A stretch of DNA of 64,000 nt from Acinetobacter sp. ANC 4204 (lineage in GTDB: Bacteria > Pseudomonadota > Gammaproteobacteria > Pseudomonadales > Moraxellaceae): NCBI RefSeq assembly GCF_002135205.1, contig NZ_NEFZ01000009.1:62001-126000 (forward strand), written 5' to 3'. The stretch's first letter is position 1. Every line of letters begins with the position of its first letter. The notes beneath the pieces were generated by a model. That model saw only the letters and a list, made by a program, of their open reading frames with translations. It was not told the origin of the DNA and searched no databases. Both the position numbers and the translations under genes were made by a program. Shown here piece by piece: positions 5,259 to 62,357 of this stretch.

Positions 5259-5340
5259 GATCGACCCTTTCACATTATTTTGGTTATTTATAACAGCAGA
5301 TCATGATATTAAGCGAATTATTTTTATAAAGAAAACATGA

Positions 5341-46238: not shown

Positions 46239-46655
46239 TTATTCTTTCACCAGATCTGGATTATTCTGGATCTGGTGAATACGTTTAATCTTGTCCTGAT
46301 CATCAAAAACAACTTCATACGAAAGTTGCTGACCATTGAAATACATCTCTGTTGGAGAGCCAATCACTTCCCAAAGACCAATGGTGGCAATATCCGCAGT
46401 CGTGTGCCATAGCGTTCGGCTGATTCTGGCTGCTTTTGAGTAGCCTTGCTGGAAGGTATAAATCTCTTTACGTTCACCATTTACAGTTTCTGAAGTGACG
46501 GGTGCACCCAATTCGGAAATCACATAATTTCGATGTTTCCCCACCTCCAAAACTGCCATATTCTTTTTATGTGGCTGGTTACTTGCCATCACTGCAGCAC
46601 AACCTTGAAGTGAAAGAAGAGTGACTAATCCCAAAACAACAGCTATTTTCTTCAC
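46239..46655 (-). CDS. Small lipoprotein with a BamE/SmpA-like domain
   Basis: The GTG at 46655, with TAGGT ahead of it, gives a 138-residue precursor with a lipobox signal peptide (KKIAVVLGLVTLLSLQGC). The mature part has MAVLEVGKHRNYVISELGAP, a pattern seen in BamE/SmpA-like small domains, then KEIYTFQQGYSK and a C-terminal segment ending QNNPDLVKE. The role is unknown. The frame extends upstream to 46703, but that start would bury the signal peptide. An 11-bp inverted repeat (46246-46256 with 46269-46279) lies within the 3' end of the gene; it could act on either transcript. Confidence 0.6.
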   Translation of the reverse strand: MKKIAVVLGLVTLLSLQGCAAVMASNQPHKKNMAVLEVGKHRNYVISELGAPVTSETVNGERKEIYTFQQGYSKAARISRTLWHTTADIATIGLWEVIGSPTEMYFNGQQLSYEVVFDDQDKIKRIHQIQNNPDLVKE

Positions 46656-46963
46656 GCTTTTTGACCTACCCCTAAAGCTAAAAAATAATATGTTTATCGA
46701 CATTCTATTTAGAATTTTCGATTAAACAAAAAACCAGCCTTAATTAGCATATAAAGAATAGGATGACAAACAAATGATTAGTTATATTTGTTGATATATT
46801 TTAAATGATCGCTATTTTTTGAATTAAACCTTACATCAAAACTTATAAGACTATGTTCACCAGAGTTTTTTATATTGACGTAAATCTTGCTGTTTTATAT
46901 GCTGATCAAAATATAATTACATTATATAGCTACAAAATTGATTTTATGGCATTTTCATTTTGG
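46656..46963. other. AT-rich spacer upstream of the cassette
   Basis: About 300 bases without a gene, between the leftward lipoprotein gene and the rightward cassette. It contains a candidate sigma-70 promoter reading toward the cassette: TTGACG (46875-46880), a 17-base spacer and TATGCT (46898-46903), plus a nearby TATAAT (46912-46917). Confidence 0.45.
46875..46903 (+). promoter_or_regulatory. Candidate promoter reading into the integron cassette
   Basis: TTGACG (five of six to consensus), exactly 17 bases, then TATGCT (four of six). It lies about 60 bases outside the inferred cassette boundary, so the recipient site would supply the promoter of the otherwise promoterless cassette gene. 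Confidence 0.4.
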
Positions 46964-47956
46964 TTAAGCGGTAAGTCTACCGTGTAACTGTAGTTAAGCA
47001 GGAAAAGTGTTGGCAGAAGCGAAGGTAAATAAGCGTGAGTGGCACGGCACTCATCATTCTTGGAGCTACCATCCCCAAGCATTCCGTTGGTCGGGCGAGA
47101 TGATATCTGGAATCAATATCTTGCCTATTGCAACGGAAATGCGCGCATGGATGATGCAACGTGGGCTGCTATCTCTTATGCCCCCTGAAGAACCAAGCAA
47201 TAAAGGCGGATTTACAAATCCATACACAACTAGTGGTATTACCTTATCTCTTCTGATGAGCAGAATAATAAATTGCTCACATGACTTTACAAGTAACCCA
47301 GATTGTAATCTTGATGAGGTGGACTCAGAAATTGAAAGGCTAAGACTTAATAACGAAATACTATTGTACTCTGCACGATTATGCGAAGTTGCAATTAAAC
47401 AGCTTTTATACTGCACGCAAATACCGGAAAAAAGATATAAAAAAATGGCATTGGGTCAACTACTTGAATCTCCATGCCCATCGTGCAAAAGGGCTAATGG
47501 AAAAGAGCCTCATCTGGTTTCTTTGGTCGGCACTCTGGCACATCCTTATCACTTGTGTTTTGAATTTGAGCACTGTGCGATGGACCATATGAATATAGTT
47601 AACAAGCTGAGAAACTCTAACTCAGCTCATTCTGATATTGAAGGTCTGAATATAAGAACCCCTAGCATCTCTAGATCTCAGCATTTTCAGCAAAGTACTG
47701 AAATCTTGAGTGATGTTGCGCATATGCTGTCACATATCGAACATTTAGAGCAAAAGATGATTAGCGACTTACAAGCAAAAGGCAACGCCATAAATCGTCT
47801 TAAACTAGACGGATTAAAGGCAGAAGACTGTAACTTTAACTTGGTTCCATGTGTGGATTTTAATTTTCACTCGCCAAAACATGCCTAACAATGCCATTAA
47901 CTCGGACGGATTTTTCGCTCCCGTTGGTCGCGAAAAACCGCTGGTGATGGCTGACG
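46964..47956 (+). mobile_element. Solitary integron gene cassette (no integrase), about 993 bp
   Basis: The left end is GTTAAGC (46963-46969), which fits the GTTRRRY core. The right end is an attC site that starts at 47883. The cassette's own R' (GTTAAGC) is complementary to the attC R'' (GCCTAAC) at six of seven positions, as expected if the two were joined in the circular form. Recombination would fall after the G, so the empty target is predicted to read TTTTGG then TTATATTTTTG. A second GTTAAGC at 46993-46999 is an alternative left end 30 bases inside. No intI or attI is in the window, so this is probably an insertion at a secondary site. The boundaries are inferred by eye. Confidence 0.75.
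47007..47888 (+). CDS. Cassette-borne protein of unknown function
   Basis: The 293-residue product was not recognised. It has no signal peptide or membrane segment. The N-terminal third is basic and aromatic (KREWHGTHHSWSYHPQAF). The middle has a Cys-rich patch (LESPCPSCKRANGKEPH) followed by HPYHLCFEFEHCAMDHM, which could bind zinc. The C-terminal third is helical (ILSDVAHMLSHIEHLEQKMI). The start is uncertain: GTG at 47007 or TTG at 47010 have AGGAAAAG ahead and lie close to the recombination point, as cassette genes do; an internal ATG at 47100 is the alternative. The TAA stop lies inside the attC R'' box. Rare codons (ATA, AGA, AGG) are more common than in the neighbours. Function cannot be assigned. 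Confidence 0.7.
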   Translation: MLAEAKVNKREWHGTHHSWSYHPQAFRWSGEMISGINILPIATEMRAWMMQRGLLSLMPPEEPSNKGGFTNPYTTSGITLSLLMSRIINCSHDFTSNPDCNLDEVDSEIERLRLNNEILLYSARLCEVAIKQLLYCTQIPEKRYKKMALGQLLESPCPSCKRANGKEPHLVSLVGTLAHPYHLCFEFEHCAMDHMNIVNKLRNSNSAHSDIEGLNIRTPSISRSQHFQQSTEILSDVAHMLSHIEHLEQKMISDLQAKGNAINRLKLDGLKAEDCNFNLVPCVDFNFHSPKHA

Positions 47957-47962
47957 TTATAT
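47883..47962 (+). other. attC recombination site of the cassette
   Basis: R'' is GCCTAAC (47883-47889) and the right end is GACGTTATAT, with G^TT at 47956-47958. Between them are complementary arms: GCCAT (47893-47897) with ATGGC (47947-47951), and an inner stem CGG-A-TTTTTCGC (47907-47918) with GCGAAAAACCG (47930-47940) in which A47910 is extrahelical. The loop is 11 bases. The total of 80 bases and the imperfect hairpin with an unpaired base are typical of attC sites. Confidence 0.8.
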
Positions 47963-47992
47963 TTTTGAACTTCCTTATCTCACTTCAAAAAC

Positions 47993-48987: not shown

Positions 48988-49722
48988 TTAGTCATCGCCA
49001 CGTAGCATGCTGAGTAGACGCAAGAATGAATAGTACATCCACACCAAAGTCGCTAGTAGTGCAATACCACACAGCCACTCCATCGCTTTCGGCGCGTGTT
49101 GTGCCGCAGCACTTTCAATCAAATCAAAATCTAAAATTAAGTTCAGTGATGCAATCACTGCAACAAAAGCAGCAAAACCTAGACCTAATAAGTTATTTTC
49201 AAATAAAAATGGAATGCTTGAACCAAAAGCCAAACGCATGACCATCTGCACCACAAAGACAATTGCGATGGCAATTGAAGCCGACATCACCACAGATTTG
49301 AATTTTTCTGTGGCACGAATAATTTGAAAACGATACAAACCAAACATCACCAAAGTGGTGACAAAAGTTGCCAATAGTGCTTGTAAAGGCACACCCGGAT
49401 ATTTCAATTGGAAAATGACCGATACCCCTCCCAAAAAAGCACCTTCAAACAAGGCATAAGGAATAGCAAGAGTTCGAGCGGTATTCGGTTTAAAGGTTGC
49501 AATGAGGCCTAAAATTAGACCACCAATCGCGCCGACTAAGGTTGCAGCATAAGCCAGCGAAATATTTAGGGTCATGAAACAGTAGAAAAACAGCGCCATA
49601 CCGACCACAGCCGCAATCACTGTAAGTAATACAGACTTCTGAATAGCACCTTGAACAGTCATCGGTTGACTATAATCCGCATGTGTTTCCACGCGGTTCA
49701 AAATAGGGTTATTACTTTGCAT
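48988..49722 (-). CDS. Bax inhibitor-1/YccA-family membrane protein
   Basis: The 244-residue product has a short cytosolic N-terminus (NPILNRVETHADYSQPMTVQGA) and seven membrane helices, for example SVLLTVIAAVVGMALFFYCF, YALFEGAFLGGVSVIFQL and LLGLGFAAFVAVIASLNLIL. The DFDLIESAA motif near the last helix has acidic residues that act as the pH/calcium gate in BI-1/YetJ proteins. E. coli YccA modulates FtsH. The gene is single and flanked by orn and fabI. The role in this organism is not known. Confidence 0.88.
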   Translation of the reverse strand: MQSNNPILNRVETHADYSQPMTVQGAIQKSVLLTVIAAVVGMALFFYCFMTLNISLAYAATLVGAIGGLILGLIATFKPNTARTLAIPYALFEGAFLGGVSVIFQLKYPGVPLQALLATFVTTLVMFGLYRFQIIRATEKFKSVVMSASIAIAIVFVVQMVMRLAFGSSIPFLFENNLLGLGFAAFVAVIASLNLILDFDLIESAAAQHAPKAMEWLCGIALLATLVWMYYSFLRLLSMLRGDD

Positions 49723-49851
49723 AACTCAACTCTTTGTTATAATTTAATTAATTTACTTTATCATAAAGCTTGTTTTAAACTTGTATAGCAAAAAAGTGTT
49801 TCTTTTTTCTACACAAACACCCTCAGCTTTATTCTATTCGATTTCAATAAA

Positions 49852-49871
49852 AAAGAGGCTAACGCCTCTTT
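49852..49871 (-). terminator. orn terminator
   Basis: AAAGAGGC/GCCTCTTT (49852-49859 with 49864-49871) with a 4-base loop, then TTTATTG on the minus strand, ten bases past the orn stop. Confidence 0.85.
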
Positions 49872-49880
49872 CTTTAGTAC

Positions 49881-50435
49881 TTATTTATTCATAATAAAAA
49901 AGTATTCGCGATAATACTTCAGTTCTGCAATCGAATCACGAATGTCATCCATCGCTAAGTGTGAAGCATTCTTTTTCAAGCCACTCATAATTTCTGGACG
50001 CCAGCGTTTAGCCAACTCTTTAACCGAAGACACATCTAAATTACGATAATGGAAATATTGTTCCATTTCAGGCATTAAACGGTGTAAAAAACGACGGTCT
50101 TGGCAGATTGAATTGCCACACATTGGTGAGCTTTTTGGATTGACCCATTTCTTTAGAAATTCTAAAGTTTGCTGCTCAGCATCTTGCGCAGTCAATTTAC
50201 TGCGACGTACACGTTCAATTAAGCCTGATTGACCATGTTGGCGAGTGTTCCACTCATCCATTGCATTTAGTACGCGATCTGGCTGATGTACAGCAAGCAC
50301 AGGCCCTTCAGCTAAAATATTTAAGTTATCATCCGTCACAATTGTAGCAACTTCAATAATTTGGTCGTTATCAGTATCGAGACCTGTCATTTCAAGGTCA
50401 ATCCAAATCAAACGCGTATCAGCGGTGCTGCTCAT
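49881..50435 (-). CDS. orn: Oligoribonuclease
   Basis: Orn degrades 2- to 5-nucleotide RNAs, including pGpG from c-di-GMP turnover, to mononucleotides. The 184-residue DEDDh exonuclease starts with [20 protein letters not shown] (acidic pair), holds [21 protein letters not shown], and ends with the [20 protein letters not shown] motif that contains the catalytic His and Asp. It is divergent from rsgA, an arrangement common in gamma-proteobacteria. Confidence 0.97.
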
Positions 50436-50559
50436 AAATGTGCAATCTTATTCGGCTTAAAAACGATGATAGTAGCAAATTAATTGCTTCGATGCTGTAA
50501 CTGCTACCCTGCTTCGTGCTATTTTTGCCATCTTGAATTCATGGTTTTTTAGGATATGA

Positions 50560-51618
50560 ATGGCTTTAATTCGTAAACGTCGTTTAACTGAACAGCAACA
50601 ACGTCGCATTCAGAAACAACAGCAAACACGTCAAGAAGATATCGACACTTCAAATGATTTAGAAGGCTTGGTGGTACAACACTATGGCCGTCAGCTTGAA
50701 GTGCAAGCCCTTACGACCCCAGATCCACATCCCATCAAACCAACGGTACAAGCAGGCGAACCTGAACCGTTTTGGAAACCGATTGAACTCGGCAGTATTT
50801 GGCGCTGTCATACACGTACCAACCTCGAACTATTGGTCACAGGTGATCGTGTCAAATGGCAAGCCGACCCAAATACAGGACTGGGAATCATCAATGCCAT
50901 ACAGCCACGTCAGTCCCTACTGACTCGTCCAGACCGTTACCATAAAGTGAAACCTGTCGCTGCCAATATCAGATTGATTGTAATTGTGTTTGCGCCACTG
51001 CCTGAGCCTGCACCAGGTCTAATTGACCGTTATTTGGTGGCCTGTGCCGATGCCAATATTCCAGCACTGTTGGTGCTGAATAAAACCGATTTACTCAAAG
51101 ACAATGACCCAATTTTAGCGTTGATTGCGGAATATCAAGCCTTAGGCTATGAAGTGATGCAAACACAAGCCGATGGTGACTTAACGGCTCTGACCCAGCG
51201 TTTAAAAAATGAAACGGTAGCCTTTGTCGGTCAGTCTGGTGTTGGCAAAAGCACCCTGATTAATGCCATCGTGCCTGACGCTGCACAAAAAACCAATGTG
51301 ATTTCTGAAAACTCAGCCTTAGGGCAGCACACCACGACCTCTACCCGTTTGATTGGTTTTGGCGAAGGTGCCTCGCTGATTGACTCACCGGGAATTCGTG
51401 AGTTCGGTTTATGGCATTTAGATGCCGACAAAGTGCAACATGGTTTTCCTGAAATTGAAAACTTATTGGGCTACTGTCAGTTCCGTAACTGTACCCATAA
51501 ACATGAAAAACAATGCGCTTTACGCTTAGCTGCGGCAAATGGTGAAATTTTAACGCGCCGTTTAGACAGCTATTTACGTCTGATTGATGAAATTGCTGAA
51601 GCTCAGCAAAAAAATTAA
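50560..51618 (+). CDS. rsgA: Small ribosomal subunit biogenesis GTPase RsgA
   Basis: RsgA checks the decoding centre of immature 30S subunits. The 352-residue product has a basic Gln/Arg-rich N-terminus, an OB-fold and a circularly permuted G domain with the motif order NKTD, then GQSGVGKSTL, then DSPGIREF. A C-terminal zinc knuckle is seen in CQFRNCTHKHEKQCAL. The divergent orn gene is 124 bases away, so the promoters share that spacer. Confidence 0.96.
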   Translation: MALIRKRRLTEQQQRRIQKQQQTRQEDIDTSNDLEGLVVQHYGRQLEVQALTTPDPHPIKPTVQAGEPEPFWKPIELGSIWRCHTRTNLELLVTGDRVKWQADPNTGLGIINAIQPRQSLLTRPDRYHKVKPVAANIRLIVIVFAPLPEPAPGLIDRYLVACADANIPALLVLNKTDLLKDNDPILALIAEYQALGYEVMQTQADGDLTALTQRLKNETVAFVGQSGVGKSTLINAIVPDAAQKTNVISENSALGQHTTTSTRLIGFGEGASLIDSPGIREFGLWHLDADKVQHGFPEIENLLGYCQFRNCTHKHEKQCALRLAAANGEILTRRLDSYLRLIDEIAEAQQKN

Positions 51619-51715
51619 TTTTTATTCAACCTTAGCCCTTGAAGCGGTGATTTTGATCACCATATTTTATGAGCTATACTCTCTAGCAATTTTTGAATTG
51701 TAATTTAGGTGACTT

Positions 51716-52123
51716 GTGGAACGTTGGTTGGAGTTTATGGGGAATCACCCCTTCTTATTTGGAACACTTGCGGTATTGGTTGTTTTGTTTTTCGTACTTG
51801 AAGGACAACGCAATGGTCGCAAAATTTCACCACAATCTTTAGGTATTTTAGTGAAAGCTAAAAATGCCATGTTGATTGACTTACGTGATGCCAAAGATTT
51901 CCGTGAAGGTCATATCAGTGGAAGTCGCAACATTCCCTACAGCCAAATTACCAAACATGTTGAAGAGTTAAAAGCTGCAGATCGTCCACTCGTGTTCATC
52001 TGTAACTTAGGTCAAGTGGCAGGCACTGCTTTACAACAAGTTGCGCATACTGACAGCTATCGTTTAGATGGCGGGATTAGCAACTGGAAAGCTCAAGGCT
52101 TACCACTGGTCAAAGCTAAATAA
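51716..52123 (+). CDS. yibN: YibN-like membrane-anchored rhodanese
   Basis: The 135-residue product starts with GTG and has one N-terminal membrane helix (PFLFGTLAVLVVLFFVL) and a cytosolic rhodanese domain (MLIDLRDAKDFREGHISGSR, then PLVFICNLGQVAGTALQQ). The cysteine in the ICNLGQVAG loop is the predicted sulfur carrier. The order with grxC and secB is the same as yibN-grxC-secB in E. coli, which supports the name. The substrate is unknown. Confidence 0.88.
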   Translation: MERWLEFMGNHPFLFGTLAVLVVLFFVLEGQRNGRKISPQSLGILVKAKNAMLIDLRDAKDFREGHISGSRNIPYSQITKHVEELKAADRPLVFICNLGQVAGTALQQVAHTDSYRLDGGISNWKAQGLPLVKAK

Positions 52124-52142
52124 TTCGCACAAGGAGAAACTC

Positions 52143-52397
52143 ATGGCTCAAGTCACTATTTACTCAACGACTGTATGTCCATATTGCGTTCGCGCAAAAC
52201 AGCTTCTTGAGCGTAAAGGCGTTGAATATAAAGAAATTAATTTATCTAAAGAAGCGCCTGAAGTCCGCATTGAATTGATGCAACGTACCAATCACCGTAC
52301 GGTCCCACAAATTTTTATTGATGACCAATTTATTGGTGGTTTTGATCAACTTTATGCTTTAGAGCGTGAAGGCAAACTCGACCAACTATTGGCATAA
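52143..52397 (+). CDS. grxC: Glutaredoxin 3
   Basis: The 84-residue dithiol glutaredoxin has the CPYC active site in STTVCPYCVRAKQLL, a cis-proline loop (NHRTVPQIFIDDQFIGGFDQL) and the usual length. It reduces disulfides with glutathione. The ATG at 52143 with AAGGAGAAACTC ahead is preferred over the longer frame that begins within yibN. It sits between yibN and secB. Confidence 0.96.
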   Translation: MAQVTIYSTTVCPYCVRAKQLLERKGVEYKEINLSKEAPEVRIELMQRTNHRTVPQIFIDDQFIGGFDQLYALEREGKLDQLLA

Positions 52398-52424
52398 TTA
52401 GCTCAGCATATTAAGGATTAGAAA

Positions 52425-52874
52425 ATGAGTGAAGCTCAACCACAACTTGCTTTAGAACGTATTTACACAAAAGATATTTCTTTTGAAGTCCCTGGGGCGC
52501 AAGTTTTTACCAAAGAATGGCAACCAGAGTTGAACATCAACTTGTCATCTTCTGCTGAAAAAGTTGATCCAACTCACTACGAAGTTTCACTTAAAGTGGT
52601 TGTACAAGCAAACAATGCAGGCGACACGGCGTTTATCGTCGATGTCACTCAAGCGGGTATTTTCCTTGTAGATGCTGTTGAAGAAGAACGTCTTCCATAC
52701 ATCTTAGGTGCATATTGTCCAAACATTTTATTCCCGTTCCTTCGTGAAGCGGTGAATGACATGGTGACTAAAGGTAGCTTCCCACAATTGTTACTTACAC
52801 CAATTAACTTTGATGCTGAGTTCGAAGCAAATATGCAGCGTGCTCAAGCCGCTGCTGTTGAAGGTCAAGCTTAA
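52425..52874 (+). CDS. secB: Protein-export chaperone SecB
   Basis: SecB keeps secretory precursors unfolded and hands them to SecA. The 149-residue acidic product contains [37 protein letters not shown] and [20 protein letters not shown], all SecB hallmarks, and has the usual length of about 150. A strong terminator shared with the convergent b562-like gene follows. Confidence 0.97.
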
Positions 52875-52897
52875 ACTTTTAAGCCCTTCAAACATAA

Positions 52898-52921
52898 AAA
52901 AGACCGCTTTTGCGGTCTTTT
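52898..52921. terminator. Bidirectional terminator between secB and the b562-like gene
   Basis: AAAAGACCGC (52898-52907) pairs with GCGGTCTTTT (52912-52921) around TTTT. T-rich tracts follow on both strands; it lies between convergent genes. Confidence 0.9.
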
Positions 52922-52934
52922 TTATTGTACTGAA

Positions 52935-53324
52935 TTATTTAAACGTTTTATGACCTTGCTGCTTAATGGCTTCAAACTTGGCTGAACTTTGTTTGGCTTC
53001 AGTCAACTTTCCTGCATGTACGAGATGTTGAGCATGTTCAATCTCTTGAGATAATACATCAAAACTTTGCTCATATTGCTTCACTTGAGCACTGTCTTTT
53101 GCTTGTTTCGCTAATTTTCCGGGCTTATTTTGTTTGGCAGTTACTGCGGCTTTTTGCATTTCAGTTAATGCGTTATTTGCCTCTGTGGCAGTCTGGGCTT
53201 GAGCAAAAGCCTTTGAGTTCTTCGCCAAAGATTTCATCGCGCCTTCTAGCACTTCCGATGCTTGTGCAAATCCTGCCAAACATATACCACTGCTCAACAG
53301 CATGACCTTTAATAGTGTTTTCAT
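52935..53324 (-). CDS. Cytochrome b562-like periplasmic protein
   Basis: The 129-residue precursor has a signal peptide (LLKVMLLSSGICLAGFAQA) and a mature four-helix bundle of about 107 residues. The mature N-terminus SEVLEGAMKSLAKNSK places a Met at position 8, and the end FEAIKQQGHKTFK places a His near the C-terminus, in line with the Met7/His102 heme ligands of E. coli cytochrome b562. The segments TEANNALTEMQKAAVTAKQN and YEQSFDVLSQEIEHAQHLVH align with that family. There is no CXXCH, so heme, if bound, would be non-covalent. Physiological partners are unknown. Confidence 0.8.
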   Translation of the reverse strand: MKTLLKVMLLSSGICLAGFAQASEVLEGAMKSLAKNSKAFAQAQTATEANNALTEMQKAAVTAKQNKPGKLAKQAKDSAQVKQYEQSFDVLSQEIEHAQHLVHAGKLTEAKQSSAKFEAIKQQGHKTFK

Positions 53325-53351
53325 TCTTATTCCTATGAGTTTGCAAAAAAA

Positions 53352-53372
53352 AATGCAGCCTAAGGCTGCATT
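53352..53372 (-). terminator. coaBC terminator
   Basis: AATGCAGCC (53352-53360) pairs with GGCTGCATT (53364-53372); on the minus strand TTTTTTTGC follows. It separates coaBC from the b562-like gene. Confidence 0.88.
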
Positions 53373-53402
53373 AAATATGGCAAAAACTAAGAACGATGTA
53401 AA

Positions 53403-54677
53403 TTAAAAATCATCATCACTTTCAGGGTCTCGGTGTAAAGCATCATGAATCGCTTCAACCAACTGCAACGCAATTTCTTGTTTCGACGCTTTTTCCAAAT
53501 CGCGCTTTTGCATTTTATAATGTTCTGCAAAAAAGACTATCATCGCATTTTCATCAGAAGCAAAACCAATATCAGGGCGTGACACATCATTACAGGCAAT
53601 CATATCGAGCTTTTTCGCCACCAATTTACCTGCAGCATATTCTTCGACATTGCGTGTTTCTGCTGCAAAGCCAACCATGAACGGGCGTTTATCTTGCTGT
53701 GCAATGGTCGCCACAATATCAGGGTTTTTGATTAAAGAAACATTGAGCTCATCCCCTGCTTTCTTAATCTTATGCTCTGCAACTTCTGCAACGCGATAGT
53801 CTGCAACAGCAGCAGTCGCGATAAACACATCACAGCCTTCATCCAACATTTGCATACTGATATCCAACATTTTCATGGCAGATGAAACATTGATCCGGCG
53901 TACACCATTCGGCGTGTCTAAGCTGACAGGACCTGCAATTAAAGTCACTTTGGCTCCAGCCGCATAACATGCAGCGGCAAGAGCAAAGCCCATTTTACCC
54001 GTACTGTGGTTGGAAATATAACGCACAGGATCAATCGCTTCACGCGTTGGCCCAGCAGTAATGGTGACTTTTTTACCGGCCAGCATCCCAAATTTTTCAG
54101 CCATGGCACGCTGCGCTTTATGGAAGTATTCCGTTACCTGATGCGCCAAATCCTCGGGCTCAGGCATACGGCCTAAACCAACATCACCACAAGCTTGAGC
54201 ACCCGCATCTGGCATGATTACATGCACGCCATCGTCTACCAAAGTCGCTAAATTACGCTGCGTCGCTTTTGCTGCCCACATTTGTTGGTTCATGGCAGGT
54301 GCAACCCACACAGGGGCTTTGGTGGCTAAATATAAAGTAGAAAGCAGGTCATCAGCTAAACCCGCAGCAAACTTTGCAATGGTGTTACAACTAGCAGGCG
54401 CAACCAAAAGCAAGTCTGCCCAGCGTGCCAGCTCAATATGTCCCATGCCCGCTTCGGCTTCAGGGTCTAACAATTCAGTATGCACAGGATTGCCTGACAA
54501 GGCTTGGAATGTTAATGGGGTAATAAAGGCTTGTGCGCCTTCGGTCATGACCACACGGACTTGAAAACCTGCGTCTTTTAAACGACGAACTAAGATGGCA
54601 CTTTTATAGGCAGCAATACCGCCCGTAACAGCTAAAAGGATATTTTTATTTGGAATCACACTGAGATCAAAGCTCAC
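53403..54677 (-). CDS. coaBC: Bifunctional phosphopantothenoylcysteine decarboxylase / phosphopantothenate-cysteine ligase
   Basis: CoaBC makes 4'-phosphopantetheine for coenzyme A. The 424-residue fusion has an N-terminal FMN-binding CoaC domain (KNILLAVTGGIAAYKSAILV, then LVAPASCNTIAKFAAGLADD and VAPAMNQQMW with the active-site residues). The C-terminal CoaB domain begins near residue 195 (KKVTITAGPTREAIDPVRYI, SNHSTGKMG, AAVADYR and KIKKAGDELNVSLIKNPDIV). It is divergent from radC. Confidence 0.97.
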   Translation of the reverse strand: MSFDLSVIPNKNILLAVTGGIAAYKSAILVRRLKDAGFQVRVVMTEGAQAFITPLTFQALSGNPVHTELLDPEAEAGMGHIELARWADLLLVAPASCNTIAKFAAGLADDLLSTLYLATKAPVWVAPAMNQQMWAAKATQRNLATLVDDGVHVIMPDAGAQACGDVGLGRMPEPEDLAHQVTEYFHKAQRAMAEKFGMLAGKKVTITAGPTREAIDPVRYISNHSTGKMGFALAAACYAAGAKVTLIAGPVSLDTPNGVRRINVSSAMKMLDISMQMLDEGCDVFIATAAVADYRVAEVAEHKIKKAGDELNVSLIKNPDIVATIAQQDKRPFMVGFAAETRNVEEYAAGKLVAKKLDMIACNDVSRPDIGFASDENAMIVFFAEHYKMQKRDLEKASKQEIALQLVEAIHDALHRDPESDDDF

Positions 54678-54788
54678 GAACAGGCTACCTTTCTGTTGCA
54701 GTGGCGCTCACAATAGCATTAAATAGTCTTATACCCAATAATCGGTTGGGTCATGTTCCTCAAATTAAGAATAAAAAAGTATAAAAGA

Positions 54789-55481
54789 ATGTACTTATCT
54801 ATAAAAAAATGGCCCGAACAAGAACGGCCACGTGAACGCTTGTTACAACAAGGGCCTGCCAGCCTCTCTGATGCGGAACTACTGGCTATTTTTATCCGCT
54901 CGGGCTCAACACAACATTCTGCGGTCGAATTGGCCCGTCTGCTGTTACAGCATTTCGGCAGTCTGAATGCCGTTTTCGATGCTGAACTGCCCGAACTCAG
55001 CCAATTTCACGGCATTGGTCCGACCAAGTATTCACAATTAATGGCCGTCAAAGAATTGGGACGACGCTACAGTAGTCAGCAGCTCAAGCAAGAAAAGTTA
55101 GAGCTCAATCATTCAGCTCAGTTACTCAAGTTTTTACAATATGAATTTTCAAGCGAGAACCAAGAGGTTTTTGCCGTACTCTGTCTCGATGCACATTTAA
55201 GAAAAATAAACTTTAAAAAGTTGTTCTTTGGTGCAGTAAATTCTTGTGAAATCTCGATCAACCAATTGCTACGTTATTGTATTGCTCAACATGCTACCTT
55301 TATGGTGATTGCCCATAACCATCCGCTTGGAAAAGCTCAGCCCTCCGCGGCGGATATCGGACTGACCGAGCGTATTCTTCAAGCCAGTCAGCTCGTGGAC
55401 ATTCAACTGATTGATCATTTTATTTTATCGCCTGAAGGTACATTTTCTTTTGCTGAACACGACCTGATCCAACCCACTTAA
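54789..55481 (+). CDS. radC: RadC-family JAB/MPN domain protein
   Basis: The 230-residue product has a helix-hairpin-helix-like N-terminus (LLQQGPASLSDAELLAIFIR, then FHGIGPTKYSQLMAVKELGR). The C-terminal JAMM zinc site reads MVIAHNHPLGKAQPSAADIG. Such proteins were linked to DNA repair, but their function is disputed. The ATG at 54789 is chosen so that the protein begins near the conserved KKWPEQERPRERLL; an upstream ATG at 54753 would add 12 residues. No SD is clear for either. coaBC is divergent, the standard arrangement. Confidence 0.92.
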   Translation: MYLSIKKWPEQERPRERLLQQGPASLSDAELLAIFIRSGSTQHSAVELARLLLQHFGSLNAVFDAELPELSQFHGIGPTKYSQLMAVKELGRRYSSQQLKQEKLELNHSAQLLKFLQYEFSSENQEVFAVLCLDAHLRKINFKKLFFGAVNSCEISINQLLRYCIAQHATFMVIAHNHPLGKAQPSAADIGLTERILQASQLVDIQLIDHFILSPEGTFSFAEHDLIQPT

Positions 55482-55556
55482 ATATGCAGACAAATGATTG
55501 ACAAATACGGTGACAAATATGAAGATCAAGCAAAATTGTAAAAGAATTCTAATCAC

Positions 55557-56468
55557 ATGATTGTGCGTGATCAGCCCAGTATTTTTAAGGTGCTTTTTTC
55601 ATGGCGTGGCACCATTCTTCCCAAAGTTTTACCCCCTTTGGGCGTGGTCATGTTGGTCTCTGCCATTATTGGCATTTTGTCCTATGTCGGCTATTTTCAT
55701 TTCCCTGAACTGCCCTTGGTCGGCTTCACCCTCATTGGGGTGGTACTTTCCATTTTCCTCGGCTTTAAAAATAGTGCCTGCTATGACCGTTGGTGGGAAG
55801 CACGGAAGCTATGGGGTATTTTAATTGCCAATTCACGTCACTTTGACCGTGACTGTCGTATCTTGACTCAAGGTCGCCGTGAACGTGTGATTCAACATGT
55901 GATTGTCTTTGCCAATGTCTTGCGTGACCGTTTACGCCATCAAACAGCCAATCCTACCGAGCTGGTGGAAACCAGTGGCCTAAGTCAAAATGCACTGACT
56001 CAGCTGTATCAACAAGCCAATGCCCCGCAGTACACCCTCAGTTTGATTCAGTGGGAGTTAATGCAAGCATTAAAAGAAGGTGAAATTAGCGACATTGTGT
56101 ATGCACAGTTGAATCAGCATGTTGCTGACCTAAGTGTAGTGCAAACCGGTTGTGACCGTATTGCGACAACACCGCTACCTTTTGCCTACTCGGTATTACT
56201 CAATCGTACGGTGTATTTTTTCTGCCTCATTTTACCGTTTAGCTTGGGCTCAACTTTAGGTATTTTCACCCCGCTTTTGGTTGGTGTGTTGGCCTATACC
56301 TTCTTAGGACTCGATGCTTTAAGCTCGGAAATTGAAGAACCTTTCGGAACGCAAAGTAATGATTTGCCGCTGGACTCGATGGTGCGTACTATTGAAATTG
56401 AACTGCTTGGGACTTTAGGTAAACCGACACCTCCCCCGATTCAAGCACAAGACAATAATCTACTCTAA
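55557..56468 (+). CDS. Bestrophin-family anion channel (YneE/RFP-TM)
   Basis: The 303-residue product has two N-terminal membrane helices (PPLGVVMLVSAIIGILSYVG and LPLVGFTLIGVVLSIFLGF), the bestrophin signature FKNSACYDRWWEARKLWG, and later helices (YFFCLILPFSLGSTLGIF and LLVGVLAYTFLGLDAL). A C-terminal tail with EIEEPFGTQSNDLPLD matches bestrophin homologues. Bacterial bestrophins form pentameric channels for anions or cations. The ATG has no strong ribosome binding site. It stands alone. Confidence 0.9.
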   Translation: MIVRDQPSIFKVLFSWRGTILPKVLPPLGVVMLVSAIIGILSYVGYFHFPELPLVGFTLIGVVLSIFLGFKNSACYDRWWEARKLWGILIANSRHFDRDCRILTQGRRERVIQHVIVFANVLRDRLRHQTANPTELVETSGLSQNALTQLYQQANAPQYTLSLIQWELMQALKEGEISDIVYAQLNQHVADLSVVQTGCDRIATTPLPFAYSVLLNRTVYFFCLILPFSLGSTLGIFTPLLVGVLAYTFLGLDALSSEIEEPFGTQSNDLPLDSMVRTIEIELLGTLGKPTPPPIQAQDNNLL

Positions 56469-56537
56469 GCGAACTCACACTTACCTTCTCTTAGGCCATA
56501 TATAGCTCATGGAGAAGGTAGCGATCCTCAAAAACAT

Positions 56538-57389
56538 TTAGATAAAACTATCCCAAATCCCCACTTGTCCCTCTTTGACTCTGGGAATATTGCCCAATTT
56601 AATCCATGGCATATTGTCACCATGAAAATCACTACCGACTGATACTTTTAAACCATGCTCGGCAATCATCCGATCCACCATTTGACGGGTAGAGGTCGGT
56701 TCAACACTGGGTGGCAACTCAACCGCATCCCCACCAAACTGCGCAAAGATTTCAATCAGGTAGCGAATATTGGTGGCCGATAAATCATAACGTGTCGGAT
56801 GCGCCAATACTGCAAAACCGCCACTGGCATGAATCACCTGAATGGTTTCTTCTAAGCCCAGTCCATCAAATTTCACGTAGGCTTTTTTGCCTTCTTTAAT
56901 ATATTTATCAAACGCTTGTTGCGCGCGACTCACATACTTTTTTTCAACCAAGGTCTTGGCAATATGGGTTCGAGTCACGCGGTCAGGCATCTGTTCAACT
57001 TTCGCCAAAACATCGAGATAAATATCCTCACCAATCAGTGGAATCAATAAATCACAAATTTCTTTGGCGCGGCGCGCGCGGATTTGTTTTTGCTGTTCAA
57101 GACATTTTTGTAGTGGCTCTAAATCTTGCATATTCAATGCAACCACATGCACGCCATAGTTTTTCTTAGTCGAGGGTCTCGACCACTGACTGGAAATTTC
57201 TACACCTGAAATAATACGCATCGCATGCGACTTTGCAGCCAACTCTGCTAAAGCAAGGCCATCCATGGTGTCATGGTCTGTCAAAGCCAAGGTATGAATA
57301 CCTTTTTCCGCTGCAGCATCAACCAATTGCTTCGGTGTAAAAGTGCCATCAGAAATATTGCTGTGAGTATGTAAATCTACGCCTTCCAT
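56538..57389 (-). CDS. PHP-domain phosphoesterase (YciV / RNase AM type)
   Basis: The 283-residue product has PHP metal motifs: VDLHTHSNISDGTFTP at the N-terminus, ALTDHDTMDGLALAE, and a GSDFHGD motif near the C-terminus, with several His/Asp ligands for three metals. Related E. coli RNase AM (YciV) cleaves 3',5'-nucleoside bisphosphates and trims 5' ends of small rRNAs. The ATG at 57389 is preferred over an adjacent GTG. It is divergent from yciB with 44 bases between starts, matching the yci gene cluster order. Confidence 0.88.
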   Translation of the reverse strand: MEGVDLHTHSNISDGTFTPKQLVDAAAEKGIHTLALTDHDTMDGLALAELAAKSHAMRIISGVEISSQWSRPSTKKNYGVHVVALNMQDLEPLQKCLEQQKQIRARRAKEICDLLIPLIGEDIYLDVLAKVEQMPDRVTRTHIAKTLVEKKYVSRAQQAFDKYIKEGKKAYVKFDGLGLEETIQVIHASGGFAVLAHPTRYDLSATNIRYLIEIFAQFGGDAVELPPSVEPTSTRQMVDRMIAEHGLKVSVGSDFHGDNMPWIKLGNIPRVKEGQVGIWDSFI

Positions 57390-57433
57390 CACTTATACTA
57401 GCTATTTATTTGAACAGATTTAGATACTCTAAC

Positions 57434-58048
57434 ATGAAAGCACTTTTAGACTTTGTGCCGCTGATCATTTTCTTTTATTTATATAAAACTGTAGATCCGA
57501 AAAATACTGATCACCCATTACTTCAATTGATTGGTTCTGCTGGGGGTGTCGATAATAATAATATTCTTGTAGCCACCACAGGTTTAATTATTTCGATGCT
57601 GATGGTTTACGGCGCACTGTTCTTCATGCAAAAGTTCCGTTTAGACAAACAACAGTGGATTGTGTTGTTTATGACGGTTATTTTCGGCGGTGTTACCTTA
57701 ATGCTGTCAGATGACTTTTACATCAAACTCAAAGCAGCCTTACTGAATATAATTTTCTCAGGTGCTTTCTTACTTTCCCCTTATTTTGGCAAAGAACGCA
57801 AACCGCTGATCAAACGTTTGTTCGGCCCAATCTTCAATTTAACCGACGCAGGTTGGAAAAATTTAAACTTTGCATGGGCGGCCATGTTTGCTCTCATGTC
57901 TTTTTTACACGTATTTTTCGCATTTTTATTTATGGACGGAAAATATTGGGGAGAATTCACGGCTTTTGGTGACATGATCGTGATGTTTTCCTTTATCATT
58001 ATTCAGTTTATTGTATTACGTAAATACTTTAAATCTTCTGAAGAGTAA
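57434..58048 (+). CDS. yciB: Inner-membrane septation protein YciB (IspZ)
   Basis: The 204-residue protein has about five membrane helices. It begins MKALLDFVPLIIFFYLYKTV and contains LQLIGSAGGVDNNNILVATTGLIIS, then LIKRLFGPIFNLTDAGWKNLNFAWA, the conserved family segment. YciB acts with cell-envelope elongation and septation complexes. The ATG at 57434 is the conserved start; the upstream one is within the divergent promoter region. yciI follows 29 bases on. Confidence 0.93.
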   Translation: MKALLDFVPLIIFFYLYKTVDPKNTDHPLLQLIGSAGGVDNNNILVATTGLIISMLMVYGALFFMQKFRLDKQQWIVLFMTVIFGGVTLMLSDDFYIKLKAALLNIIFSGAFLLSPYFGKERKPLIKRLFGPIFNLTDAGWKNLNFAWAAMFALMSFLHVFFAFLFMDGKYWGEFTAFGDMIVMFSFIIIQFIVLRKYFKSSEE

Positions 58049-58077
58049 TTTAGCCAGAACATACATCGAGAATTCAT

Positions 58078-58380
58078 ATGCCGCTATTCGTTGTCACATG
58101 TACCGATCAGGAAGGGACTGTCGAAAAACGCCTTGCTACACGTCCAGAACATCTTGTTCGTTTACAAAAGCTCAATGATGAAGGTCGTTTAATTGTTGCT
58201 GGTGCAATGCCTAAAGACCCAAGCAATCCACAAGCGGGTTTTTATGGCAGTACGATCATTGTTGACTTTGACTCACGTGAAGCACTCGATGCATGGTTAC
58301 AGGAAGAGCCTTTCTTAAAAGCAGGGGTTTATCGTCATATTGATGTTAAACCATTTAATAAAGCATTCCCTCAAGGATAA
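58078..58380 (+). CDS. YciI family protein
   Basis: The 100-residue product belongs to the dimeric ferredoxin-like YciI family. It has PLFVVTCTDQEGTVEKRL, RPEHLVRLQKLNDEGRLIVAG and the characteristic YGSTIIVDFDSREALDAWLQ then DPF-like EPFLKAGVYRHIDVKPF. A role as a small-molecule dehydratase is suggested for some members; none is shown for this one. It is next to yciB as in many gamma-proteobacteria, and the following secreted protein starts four bases after its stop. Confidence 0.88.
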   Translation: MPLFVVTCTDQEGTVEKRLATRPEHLVRLQKLNDEGRLIVAGAMPKDPSNPQAGFYGSTIIVDFDSREALDAWLQEEPFLKAGVYRHIDVKPFNKAFPQG

Positions 58381-58384
58381 GGTC

Positions 58385-58891
58385 ATGCGTGTCGTTGTCA
58401 CAAGCTTATTGGGTTTATCTCTTCTTTCTTCTATGGCATGGGCGGTTGAAACCGCACCTGCTCCAAGTGTAGCCCCTGCCGTCCAAGCAACGACTGCGGC
58501 TCCACCACCATCTGGACACAACACCGCTACACAACCAAAAATTATTCCTGCTGTAGCAACCATTAGTCCAAATGGTCAACCACAGGAAGCCAAACCGCTC
58601 ACCGCTGAACAATTGGCGAAAAACAAAGCCCTCCAAGATGCCAAAGTCAAAGCATTGGTCAAAGACCAAGCTTCTCGCTTAGCTCAGTTAGAAAAAGCCA
58701 ATCTTGATGCTTTGGCACAAAACCAAGAGCTACAACTTAAAAATGACAGCCTCGGTGTACAAGTACAGGTTTTACAAAGCGAACGCAGTGCACAAATGTT
58801 TCTCTACGGTGCAGCAACCATCGCTGTGGGTGTCTTACTGGGTTTCTTAATTGCTAGTTACGTTTATACCAAACGCCGTCGTCAGTGGTAA
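58385..58891 (+). CDS. Membrane-anchored coiled-coil protein of unknown function
   Basis: The 168-residue product has an N-terminal signal peptide (VVVTSLLGLSLLSSMAWA), an Ala/Pro/Thr-rich stretch of about 50 residues, a predicted coiled coil (about 72-136, ALQDAKVKALVKDQASRLAQ and on), one C-terminal membrane helix (FLYGAATIAVGVLLGFLIAS) and a basic tail KRRRQW. The topology places the coiled coil in the periplasm. No family was recognised, though the layout is similar to other membrane-tethered spacer proteins. The ATG at 58385 follows yciI by four bases. Confidence 0.65.
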   Translation: MRVVVTSLLGLSLLSSMAWAVETAPAPSVAPAVQATTAAPPPSGHNTATQPKIIPAVATISPNGQPQEAKPLTAEQLAKNKALQDAKVKALVKDQASRLAQLEKANLDALAQNQELQLKNDSLGVQVQVLQSERSAQMFLYGAATIAVGVLLGFLIASYVYTKRRRQW

Positions 58892-58921
58892 GCTAAGCCC
58901 TATTAGAAACAATAGGGTACT

Positions 58922-60835
58922 GTGGCTTTGTCAAGCGCAATTCAAACTGCCGATTTAGAGTGGCAACAAGTTGATGGCATTGATGTGCCAGTTTCAAAAC
59001 AATTTGGCGATGTCTATTTTTCCAAAGACAATGGTCTACTCGAAACACGCCATGTGTTTTTAAATGGCAACGATTTATCTGAGCGCCTGTCAAATCTTCA
59101 GCCCTTTGAATATTTTAGTGTTGGTGAAACTGGCTTTGGCACAGGGCTCAACATCTTGGCACTTTGGCAACTTTGGCAACAAGTACGGCCAAATAACCAC
59201 AGCCATCTCCATGCCATTTCAGTTGAAAAATTTCCGCTATCTAAGGCTGATCTGATACGCGCACTCGATGCTTGGCCTGAACTTAAACCGATCGCCGATG
59301 AATTGATAACACAATACCCGCATCCGATTGCGGGTTGTCATCGCCTGAGCTTCCCTAATGAACGTTTTAGCCTAGACCTTTGGTTAGGCGATGCCCACGA
59401 TGTTTTCCCTAGTATGGCAAAAACCAGTAGCGTTAACGCATGGTTCCTCGATGGGTTTGCACCCTCATGTAATCCTGACATATGGGAAGAACAAGTTCTT
59501 CAACATATTATTCGCCTATCAGATGTCGGGACGACCTTTGCTTCATTTAGTGTTGCAGGCGTGCTCAAACGTGGTTTAACACAGCATGGTATTTCTATTT
59601 CACGTCCGCGTGGATTTAAACACAAACGCGAAATGCTCAAAGCCATCTGGTTCCCTGCTGAGCCTGAACATACATCAGATGCTGTAGACGCCAAATCGGT
59701 ATCGGATCAAAACCGACCTGGTCAACGACCATACCCTTTTAAACAGCGCCATATCGCAATCATAGGTGCAGGGATTGCAGGTTTAACTAGTGCATGGGCC
59801 TTTGCTGAGCGTGGGCACCAAGTCACGCTCTACGACCAATCTGAGCCACTCGCAGGAGGTTCAGGCAATCCGCTGGCCTTACTCAACCCCAAACTTTGTC
59901 CGATTGAACAAAGTCATGAACATCTCATGACCTTGGCTTGGCAACATGCTTTACAGCACTATTCCAAATTTCAAGCTTTTCGCCCGATTCAAGTACATCA
60001 ACTGGCGCTTAAAAAAGCCGAAGACTTACTCGATCTCGAACCACAATATCCTGCGGGTCTTTTGACAGCCGAAACCGCTGCTGATTCAGCGTTAATCACT
60101 GAATATTCCAGTCTGAATTTAACCGAAGCGGGCGCCGTTTCACCACATCAACTCAGAGATCAAATCTTAGCGCATCCGCTGATTCAGTTCGTACAAGCCA
60201 ACATTACTCAAATCCATCCAGAGCACAATGAAATCGTAGATGAACAAGCTCAATCTCTAGGTCAGTTTGATCACGTGATTGTGTGTTGTGCACGCCACAC
60301 GGCTACTTTCTTTGAGCAGTACCCTGTGCTGAAGCCCATTCGTGGACAAGTTAGCTGGGTGGAGAACACGTCACAAGCATTCGCACTTGATCAAGCCTAT
60401 AGCTATGGTGGCTATTGTATGCAGCTTGATGCTCAACAGCTCATCTTAGGCGCATCCTTCTATCCGAATCGGGACGACAGCGATGTTTTGCTTGAAGACC
60501 ATGTGCATAACTACGAGCTTATCCACAGTGTCTTTCCAGATTATGCACAATCACTTCCTGATGTGAGGACTTGGCAAGGCCGTGCATCCGTTCGCGCGCA
60601 AAGTTTGGACTATTTTCCAGTACTTGGTAGAATGTCCGAACAGTCTGAAGTTTATAGCTTTGCAGGCCTAGGCTCTAAGGGCTTCTTATTTGCGCCTTTA
60701 TGCAGTGAAATTTTAGTGGCACAGATACTAAAAGAGGCCTGCCCTGTTCCTGAGTCACTGCTACAAAAGCTCAGTCCAACCCGATTCCACAAGAAAGTCA
60801 AAGCCAAAAAGCCTTATTTTAAAGCGCAGTCTTAG
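58922..60835 (+). CDS. mnmC: Bifunctional tRNA mnm5s2U34 enzyme MnmC
   Basis: MnmC finishes the wobble uridine modification mnm5(s2)U. The 637-residue protein has an N-terminal SAM methyltransferase domain (VGETGFGTGLNILALWQLWQ, then WFLDGFAPSCNPDIWEEQVL). A C-terminal FAD-dependent oxidoreductase domain begins near residue 275 with HIAIIGAGIAGLTSAWAFAE, then LAGGSGNPLALLNPKL and FAGLGSKGFLFAPLCSEILV. It starts at GTG 58922 because the conserved region begins immediately after. Translation is not coupled to the gene upstream (30-base gap). Confidence 0.95.
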   Translation: MALSSAIQTADLEWQQVDGIDVPVSKQFGDVYFSKDNGLLETRHVFLNGNDLSERLSNLQPFEYFSVGETGFGTGLNILALWQLWQQVRPNNHSHLHAISVEKFPLSKADLIRALDAWPELKPIADELITQYPHPIAGCHRLSFPNERFSLDLWLGDAHDVFPSMAKTSSVNAWFLDGFAPSCNPDIWEEQVLQHIIRLSDVGTTFASFSVAGVLKRGLTQHGISISRPRGFKHKREMLKAIWFPAEPEHTSDAVDAKSVSDQNRPGQRPYPFKQRHIAIIGAGIAGLTSAWAFAERGHQVTLYDQSEPLAGGSGNPLALLNPKLCPIEQSHEHLMTLAWQHALQHYSKFQAFRPIQVHQLALKKAEDLLDLEPQYPAGLLTAETAADSALITEYSSLNLTEAGAVSPHQLRDQILAHPLIQFVQANITQIHPEHNEIVDEQAQSLGQFDHVIVCCARHTATFFEQYPVLKPIRGQVSWVENTSQAFALDQAYSYGGYCMQLDAQQLILGASFYPNRDDSDVLLEDHVHNYELIHSVFPDYAQSLPDVRTWQGRASVRAQSLDYFPVLGRMSEQSEVYSFAGLGSKGFLFAPLCSEILVAQILKEACPVPESLLQKLSPTRFHKKVKAKKPYFKAQS

Positions 60836-60900
60836 TTCTGCTTTTGACTCAAGTGCAGCGCATGGCGCTATAGAGAAAATTCATATTTCCAAGACATTAA

Positions 60901-60922
60901 AAAAGCGCCTTACGGCGCTTTT
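60901..60922. terminator. Bidirectional terminator between mnmC and the rhodanese gene
   Basis: AAAAGCGCC (60901-60909) pairs with GGCGCTTTT (60914-60922) around TTAC, with T tracts on both strands between convergent genes. Confidence 0.9.
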
Positions 60923-60933
60923 TTTGCTGTTGC

Positions 60934-61248
60934 TTAGTTGCCCTGCTCTAAGGCTAGACCAGCATCACGAGCAGCACGAGTACCGCCCATTAAAATGACA
61001 TACTCACGCGCACTATCAAAACCTTCAAGTAGCTCTGCTGCACGTGGTGCTTTGCTTCCGCCGCCACATAATATATAAATCGGTTGACCCGTCGACACCT
61101 GAGTAAGGCTCTGTGCCGATAGTCCTGTGATGGGCTGATTAACCGCCCCTTTCACGTGTGCTTCGGCATAAGCATTTGAATCGCGTACATCCCAGATGAT
61201 CGCATCCTCTGGGAACTCAAATGTTGTAATTTCTTGTTTACGGATCAT
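60934..61248 (-). CDS. Single-domain rhodanese
   Basis: The 104-residue cytosolic product has the rhodanese fold (DAIIWDVRDSNAYAEAHVKG, then GAVNQPITG) and the active-site loop LCGGGSKAPRAAELLEGF with the sulfur-carrying Cys. The ATG at 61248 has AAGGAG 7 bases ahead and is preferred over the longer frame. The gene is divergent from yajQ. It is a sulfur carrier by family; its partner is unknown. Confidence 0.88.
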   Translation of the reverse strand: MIRKQEITTFEFPEDAIIWDVRDSNAYAEAHVKGAVNQPITGLSAQSLTQVSTGQPIYILCGGGSKAPRAAELLEGFDSAREYVILMGGTRAARDAGLALEQGN

Positions 61249-61339
61249 TGCGCACTCCTTTGATGTAAACAACACTTGGCAAATGAAGAAAACATCCCTA
61301 GCATCTCAGATATTCTTTCTATTTGTAAAGGTCTAATCC

Positions 61340-61828
61340 ATGCCATCTTTTGATATTGTTTCAGAATTAGAAATTTTTGAGGTAAATCATGCTGTTCAGA
61401 ATACCCAAAAGGAAATTGCAACCCGTTTTGACTTCCGAGGTCAAGATGTTTCAATTGAACTCAATGAAAAAAACAAAGAAATTAAAATCTCAACAGAAAG
61501 TGATTTCCAGTGCGAACAAGTTTATACCATGTTAGAGAACCATTTCTTTAAGCGTAAAGTTGATATTCAAGCGCTTGATCCACAAAAAATGACCGCTTCA
61601 GGTAAAAATGTACTTCAAGTGGTGAAATTAAAAGACGGACTTGACTCAGATACCGCAAAAAAAATTAACAAAGCCATTAAAGAAAGTGGCATTAAAGTGC
61701 AATCTTCAATTCAAGGCGACAAAATTCGTGTGACTGATAAAAAGCGCGATACATTACAGCAAGTAATGACGTTTTTAAAAGAACAGCAATTTGGTCTGCC
61801 TTTACAGTTCAATAACTTTAAAGACTAA
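61340..61828 (+). CDS. yajQ: YajQ-family nucleotide-binding protein
   Basis: The 162-residue product starts MPSFDIVSELEIFEVNHAVQNTQKEI, then TRFDFRGQDVSIELNE, and has the characteristic ASGKNVLQVVKLKDGLDSDTA and RVTDKKRDTLQQVMTFLKEQ. Members bind cyclic di-GMP or RNA and some act as effectors in virulence. In the window no partner (for example a LysR regulator) is adjacent. The next gene follows 28 bases on. Confidence 0.94.
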   Translation: MPSFDIVSELEIFEVNHAVQNTQKEIATRFDFRGQDVSIELNEKNKEIKISTESDFQCEQVYTMLENHFFKRKVDIQALDPQKMTASGKNVLQVVKLKDGLDSDTAKKINKAIKESGIKVQSSIQGDKIRVTDKKRDTLQQVMTFLKEQQFGLPLQFNNFKD

Positions 61829-61856
61829 TCCCCTTGTTCGATCATTTGAGGTAACT

Positions 61857-62357
61857 ATGCCAAAGGCCAATCGCTTATCTAAAATTGTAAAAGCCACTTC
61901 TCGCTTGCCGAAAGCGTTGCGTACACGATTATGGAGTCAAGCTTTTGGTCGCATAGTTCCCATGGTCGGCAGTGCTCATATCCGTTATTTACAAGTGAGT
62001 CATAGTGAAGTCGTCGTCAAAATTGAAAACCACCGAGCTATGCAAAACCATATTGGTCAACTACATGCCTGTGCCATGGCCTTGATTGCTGAAACGGCAA
62101 CAGGTTTTGTCACAGGGATGAATGTGCCTGACCATTGCATCGTTCTGATTAAAAGCATGCATATTGACTTTAAACGTCCAAGTAAAGGTGCCATGACAGC
62201 GACAGCCACCTTAACACCAGAACAACAGCAACTGATGCAAACTACCGCCAAAGGTGAAACTTTAGTTTCTGTGACAGTAATGGATGAATCGGGTGAAGCA
62301 CCTGTTCAATGTGAAATGTTATGGGCTTGGCTCGATAAAGCATCATTAAAAAAATAA
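61857..62357 (+). CDS. DUF4442 hotdog-fold protein (putative thioesterase)
   Basis: The 166-residue product has a basic N-terminus (KANRLSKIVKATSRLPKALR), then VGSAHIRYLQVSHSEVVVKI and the central hotdog helix NHIGQLHACAMALIAETATG. This is the DUF4442/YiiD-C layout related to 4-hydroxybenzoyl-CoA thioesterases. Substrate unknown. The ATG at 61857 with GAGGTAACT ahead fits better than the longer frame overlapping yajQ. Confidence 0.85.
   Translation: MPKANRLSKIVKATSRLPKALRTRLWSQAFGRIVPMVGSAHIRYLQVSHSEVVVKIENHRAMQNHIGQLHACAMALIAETATGFVTGMNVPDHCIVLIKSMHIDFKRPSKGAMTATATLTPEQQQLMQTTAKGETLVSVTVMDESGEAPVQCEMLWAWLDKASLKK

Follow-up and report, generated by a model that had tools for sequence, protein, structure and literature searches.

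A single gene cassette at an integron platform without integrase beside fabI in Acinetobacter sp. ANC 4204

Integrons are normally found through their integrase or through clusters of attC sites, and attI sites that hold one cassette and have no integrase gene (intI) would escape both routes. A related class is the CALIN (attC sites without intI), which by default requires at least two attC sites, while IntegronFinder 2.0 does not detect attI sites beyond class 1, these being poorly described (PMC9024848). It has already been stated in print that a functional integron integrase can mobilise CALIN cassettes in trans (PMC12444791). In Acinetobacter baylyi, active IntI1 is described as costly, and fitter mutants with inactivated intI1 appeared after 30-42 days (PMC3510236); the same species is reported to lack lexA, and non-cognate integrases to work poorly on attI sites (PMC8946536). 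Our literature search, whose coverage leaves out most subscription journals, turned up nothing published on orphan attI sites in this genus.

The window, as the whole 64,000-nucleotide stretch of Acinetobacter sp. ANC 4204 that was analysed is called here, holds the sole cassette of an integron platform without intI. All 6 plasmid records that match 49000-62000 come from Acinetobacter, in keeping with the host genus, with A. johnsonii the nearest (94.5% over 7% of the query). The features of the locus, in window coordinates, are:

46239..46703, minus strand: small BamE-like lipoprotein gene, left neighbour; Pfam BamE slightly under cut-off
46875..46903, plus strand: candidate Pc, promoter-like TTGACG-17-TATGCT upstream of attI; consensus match
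~46933..46999, plus strand: predicted attI without intI; homology to intI-linked attI, alignments
46994..47956, plus strand: gene cassette; left boundary from relatives' homology, right boundary from attC sequence and fold
47007..47888, plus strand: cassette gene, 293 aa, unclassified, HEPN-like R202-x5-H208; open reading frame with GTG start
47883..47962, plus strand: attC; R'' GCCTAAC at 47883-47889; crossover G47956|T47957
48040..48858, minus strand: fabI, right neighbour and anchor for locus comparison

The sequence-only reading had the cassette at a secondary GTT/GAT target with no attI near, and on both counts it has to be revised. With flank DNA alone as the query, 46933-46996 matches a site beside the integron integrase gene of G153 (77%, E 1.1e-5), the gene lying on the opposite strand; an attG secondary-site insertion was dropped on this match, and the cassette lies at the crossover of an attI that lacks intI. 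The order in G153 (L077) is intI (327 aa, intact), attI, cassette, attC, cassette, attC. Because a similar attI there adjoins an intact integron integrase and a cassette array, the window is best described as an intI-less platform with a single cassette. Judged by homology and by a crossover at the equal place, 46933-46999 is a predicted attI of an integron family that occurs in Acinetobacter and, in one case, on a Moraxella plasmid. On that plasmid, Moraxella osloensis pNP7-1 (L182, ~4875-5650), the attI closely resembles that of L077 (91% over 128 bases), and its first cassette is an AAC(3)-I gene; the intI match there is limited to the first 42 residues and lies beside an IS3 transposase gene.

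The site comprises a dyad with arms GTTAAGCGGTAAG/TCTACCGTGTAAC (46963-46988), a left half-site at ~46982-46988, and a right half-site GTTAAGC at 46993-46999 with the crossover G46993|T46994, a layout which we take to be attI1-like. Dyad and right half-site are conserved in the attI alignments. Dyad pairing holds in 90.9% of cells, and 8 cells show double changes, a level reached by 1/500 shuffles in a test that is inflated by related sequences and uses RNA pairing rules counting G-U; two of the five dyad measures are weaker, being reached by 34/500 and 29/500 shuffles. The model R1 gives the window attI 66.2 bits, the window being one of its 13 training rows.

GTTAAGC occurs twice at the left end, 30 bp apart, at 46963-46969 within the attI and at 46993-46999, where it holds the crossover. 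The earlier placement of the left end at 46964 is ruled out: homology with relatives continues through the first copy, which is the 5′ arm of the attI dyad, to 46993, so the true end lies 30 bp further right and the integrated cassette is 46994-47956 (963 bp, plus strand), between the BamE-like lipoprotein gene and fabI. The upstream DNA aligns with that of G172 (83% over ~1.2 kb) up to the crossover, with that of G008 (80%) up to the same base, and with that of G171 (75%) to within 2 bases of the crossover. On the right, host DNA begins after 47956, within the attC interval. Relatives carrying the region without a GTT-centred junction had been expected to count against a cassette; the relatives instead have an attI junction with other genes at it. 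A joined-flank search for the empty site was uninformative because slot content differs in every relative examined. The cassette matches 1/175 Acinetobacter genomes, its own. The BamE-like gene is also present in some relatives with the attI, while the nearest relative by fabI region (G115, L010; fabI 94.3%) has neither lipoprotein gene nor slot, and its outer-membrane factor gene directly adjoins fabI. The candidate Pc region is conserved in several relatives; promoter consensus matches in the scanned stretch (5 found, 4.6 expected) are not above chance. Rfam gave four matches, every one under its gathering score.

The right end bears an 80-base attC with R'' GCCTAAC, in which the stop codon of the single 293-codon gene lies. 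It is the best of seven matches above thresholds (16 arm pairs, -14.7) in a simple purpose-made scan, distinct from the IntegronFinder model, of both strands of the 64-kb window, and it is the one convincing attC there, fewer than the two of a CALIN. The bottom strand of 47876-47970 folds as a hairpin of -14.7 kcal/mol, equalled by 2/200 shuffles; with the R' of the circular form, the outer arms pair throughout (-15.9). Besides R''/R', the element has paired inner arms and a GTT crossover, and its left end is complementary to R'' as in a circular cassette, with R' GTTAAGC and R'' GCCTAAC agreeing at 6/7 positions. Sequence, fold, and scan thus bear out the sequence-only reading of a lone integron cassette with an attC, including its gene, its stop codon, its hairpin, and its R'/R'' pairing.

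The absence of a nearby intI, also asserted by that reading, holds as well. A TIGR02249 search of the own genome gave nothing over cut-off (five weaker matches in three open reading frames), and tblastn with Acinetobacter IntI left no trace in the 64-kb window; with no intI in cis, the locus is not a complete integron. IntI over cut-off is present in 7/173 Acinetobacter genomes. Among plasmids, a search for IntI at 1e-120 had no match, and one at 1e-60 drew at least 5000 records, all of those retrieved being less than 60% identical; the 12 matches listed are class 1 IntI1 or unannotated. It is possible that a plasmid-borne integrase is missing from the draft assembly. In a Peptidase_S24 search of the own genome, LexA was not separable from UmuD-like proteins.

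Comparison of one genome per species places an attI near fabI in eight species: that of the window, G172, G008, G057, G114, G166, G171, and G128, leaving out weaker attI-like matches near fabI in G032, G140, and G033. At none of the eight does tblastn find an intI trace, and none of the seven IntI-bearing genomes is among them. Upstream DNA divides the species into two groups, window/G172/G008/G171 and G057/G114/G166, within each of which homology reaches the crossover or stops at most 2 bp from it (seven species); for G128, the alignment to the second group breaks off at about -31 to -48, ~30-50 bp short. Over the first 900 bp past the crossover, the right flank alone is common to the slots, and their proteins are unrelated (best E 0.30 by blastp among 11 proteins). 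The right ends often retain attC pieces, and several relatives' attCs are collapsed or degenerate, so turnover at those slots may have ended long ago. In L086, L088, and L090, the attC is reduced to a few bases between R'' and R' (e.g., GCCTAAC-GCAGGC-GTTA), a form suggestive of a deleted hairpin, in which the cassette would be locked. One of the two fabI copies of a further genome (G174 C1, L093) has a slot that ends in a clear attC, itself starting ATCTAAC, in a stretch where R1 detects no attI.

The sites extend beyond fabI. R1 (13 rows) and then R2 (26 rows, used in the controls) were run over the genus. Nine sites beyond the R1 rows pass 1e-5 with R1, and R2 at E<=1e-5 reports 30 sites in 20/173 Acinetobacter genomes, 26 of the 30 being R2 training rows. 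In 142 other Gammaproteobacteria, R2 has no match at E<=1e-5 (three reach 1e-3, best 1.9e-4); in 299 genomes of the family (16 genera), 20 have a match at E<=1e-4, all Acinetobacter. Of the 30 sites, an intact intI adjoins one, an intI carrying a stop codon another, and intI remnants seven. Remnants lie beside attI in G153 C26, G116, G085, G168, G035, and G033 C9. The other 21 sites have no tblastn trace in the upstream DNA examined, which spans ~380 bases for G128 C133 and 1.5 kb for G130 and G146. G128 has the most sites of any genome examined, four (L141 = C133, L142, L143, and L144), in an assembly that is incomplete at 65% and 160 contigs. The expected R'', sought downstream of 15 scattered or fabI sites, is a perfect complement at some and missing at several.

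Different cassettes stand on common flanks. G153 C26, G116, G085, and G168 have one intI truncation in common and are 96-98% identical over the last 1 kb before the crossover, yet the first cassette at their attI differs in all four, a pattern suggesting that attI sites without an integrase receive their cassettes in trans. G153 also carries an intact IntI at another place in its genome, and G168 a partial IntI-like open reading frame (residues 5-163, 47%). Likewise, the intI-less attI sites of G143 and G166 are 94.7% identical over 1000 bp ending at the crossover, beyond which the two have no match except a 38-bp piece of G121's copy. Two other pairs at intI-less loci, G057/G128 and G041/G127, show 73% identity that also ends at the crossover. 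The G128 alignment at locus C reaches only about -130 relative to the crossover.

The reading we favour, with a probability of about 0.76, is that the cassette was loaded at the intI-less attI by an integron integrase from elsewhere, such as a further integron copy or a transiently present plasmid. This enzyme would have recombined the attC of the circular cassette with the attI at G46993|T46994, thereby inserting one gene downstream of a possible fixed promoter, with the lipoprotein gene and fabI on either side. The candidate Pc may drive the gene, and the attI and attC may continue to react. Since the assembly has no integron integrase over the cut-off, the cassette would now be frozen until one enters. 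An integrase acting in trans was also the proposal of the sequence-only reading, and it remains the best explanation of a locus that has no integrase in cis and whose attI holds other genes in other species.

The main competitor is a decayed chromosomal integron, in which an intI at this locus took up the cassette in cis and later disappeared, the same having happened in other species either independently or through flank recombination. Stepwise intI loss is described in Xanthomonas (PMC12444791), and IntI1 is reported to be costly in A. baylyi and to be inactivated in evolution experiments (PMC3510236); the intI remnants beside attI listed above fit such a course. If intI was lost in cis after each capture, homologous recombination could then have spread the intI-less flank, a course with which it agrees that some sites have their first cassette or downstream DNA in common (G143/G121, G033/G035 at C9/C1, and locus D over the first 73 bp past the crossover). 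Against this stand the lack of any tblastn intI trace at the fabI attI in all eight species and the single intI truncation that carries four different first cassettes. In both pairs tested, moreover, flanks and housekeeping genes are diverged to a similar degree: between G143 and G166, the attI flank is 94.7% identical, fabI 95.0%, and rpe 96.9%, and between G116 and G168, the flank is 96.4% and fabI 99.0%. Flanks no more alike than housekeeping genes argue against recent flank spread, and in these two pairs, they look vertically inherited. Decay in cis is therefore considered unlikely.

Two further explanations carry very little weight. One is the earlier view that an integrase in trans put the cassette at an attG-like secondary site other than an attI; although such insertion is a known process (Loot et al. 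2024, as cited in PMC12444791 and PMC12901181), it is highly improbable here, given that the target has the extended attI sequence common to intI-linked sites and a crossover at the right half-site. The other is that the feature does not belong to an integron at all and is a Xer/dif-type module or a chance hairpin by an ordinary gene. Tyrosine-recombinase sites in general resemble the layout of a dyad with half-sites, but elsewhere the same attI adjoins intI and attC arrays, the right-end attC ranks first in the window, and the Chroococcus and Vibrio homologues of the cassette protein have like complementary ends, which leaves this explanation hardly credible.

The cassette protein itself matches no family of Pfam or NCBIfam at E<=1, nor one of PADLOC at E<=10. 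Its close relatives are in a Chroococcus record (74%) and a Vibrio record (70%), both bounded by complementary ends (GTTAGGC/GCCTAAC or GTTAGGT/ACCTAAC); their right ends gave no full attC in the simple attC scan. A distant relative on a Phycisphaera plasmid (29%) is the sole match in plasmids, viral contigs contain no relative, and among 274 Gammaproteobacteria genomes, only its own has the protein. R202 and H208 are retained in all four proteins, so that the R-x5-H motif persists even at 29% identity. The window protein has no Pfam match and the three relatives no match to a HEPN family, while the Vibrio relative weakly matches PtuB1 (E 0.015); an AlphaFold model built from 3 sequences reaches a pLDDT of 41, too poor for use. 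A HEPN-type toxin or defence role is thus a guess based on the motif.

A scan of 11 distinct proteins from orphan sites, which does not include every gene of every slot, gave two clear defence-type matches (G171 TIR/PDC-S35 and G128 AbiD/Abi_2). The match at G128 C116 (PDC-S57, T5orf172) is weaker, that in G114 (PDC-S18) marginal, and that at G057 C4 hydrolase-like; the remaining proteins have none. With so few defence matches, no claim of a defence island is made. First genes at the same attI type in L091 and L144 include a TIR effector (PDC-S35, CAP12-type TIR) and an AbiD/Abi_2 protein.

More broadly, and with somewhat less than even confidence, Acinetobacter may have scattered integrase-less attI docking sites where a transient integrase loads and swaps cassettes in trans, in effect a distributed integron. 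With the same tentativeness, the docking sites would number up to four per genome in our sample, each with its own upstream region. Perhaps, too, and again on slightly unfavourable odds, the docking sites are kept and the enzyme borrowed where a standing integrase is costly. If trans-acting integrases serve the sites, integrase counts understate the breadth of gene capture in Acinetobacter (IntI in 7/173 genomes versus attI in 20/173), and loss of intI need not end the life of an integron. A distributed integron, if real, would be invisible to current finders.

Set beside the described systems, the locus resembles a sedentary chromosomal integron, with which it shares an attI with a cassette, an attC, and a G|TT crossover, and whose intact intI adjoins a similar attI in G153; it differs in having no intI at the locus (none over cut-off in the genome) and a single cassette. 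Like a CALIN, or a single attC lacking an integron integrase in the IntegronFinder classes, it has an attC without intI, but unlike a CALIN, it has an attI and one attC in the window. Insertions at attG or other secondary sites (Loot et al. 2024, as cited) likewise consist of a lone chromosomal cassette placed in trans; their targets are non-classical attG sites, whereas the target here is an attI. In Xanthomonas integrons with inactivated intI, as described in PMC12444791, intI is likewise lost or broken while the cassettes stay, in contrast to which the attI sites of Acinetobacter are several and scattered, and flanks with the same intI loss carry different cassettes.
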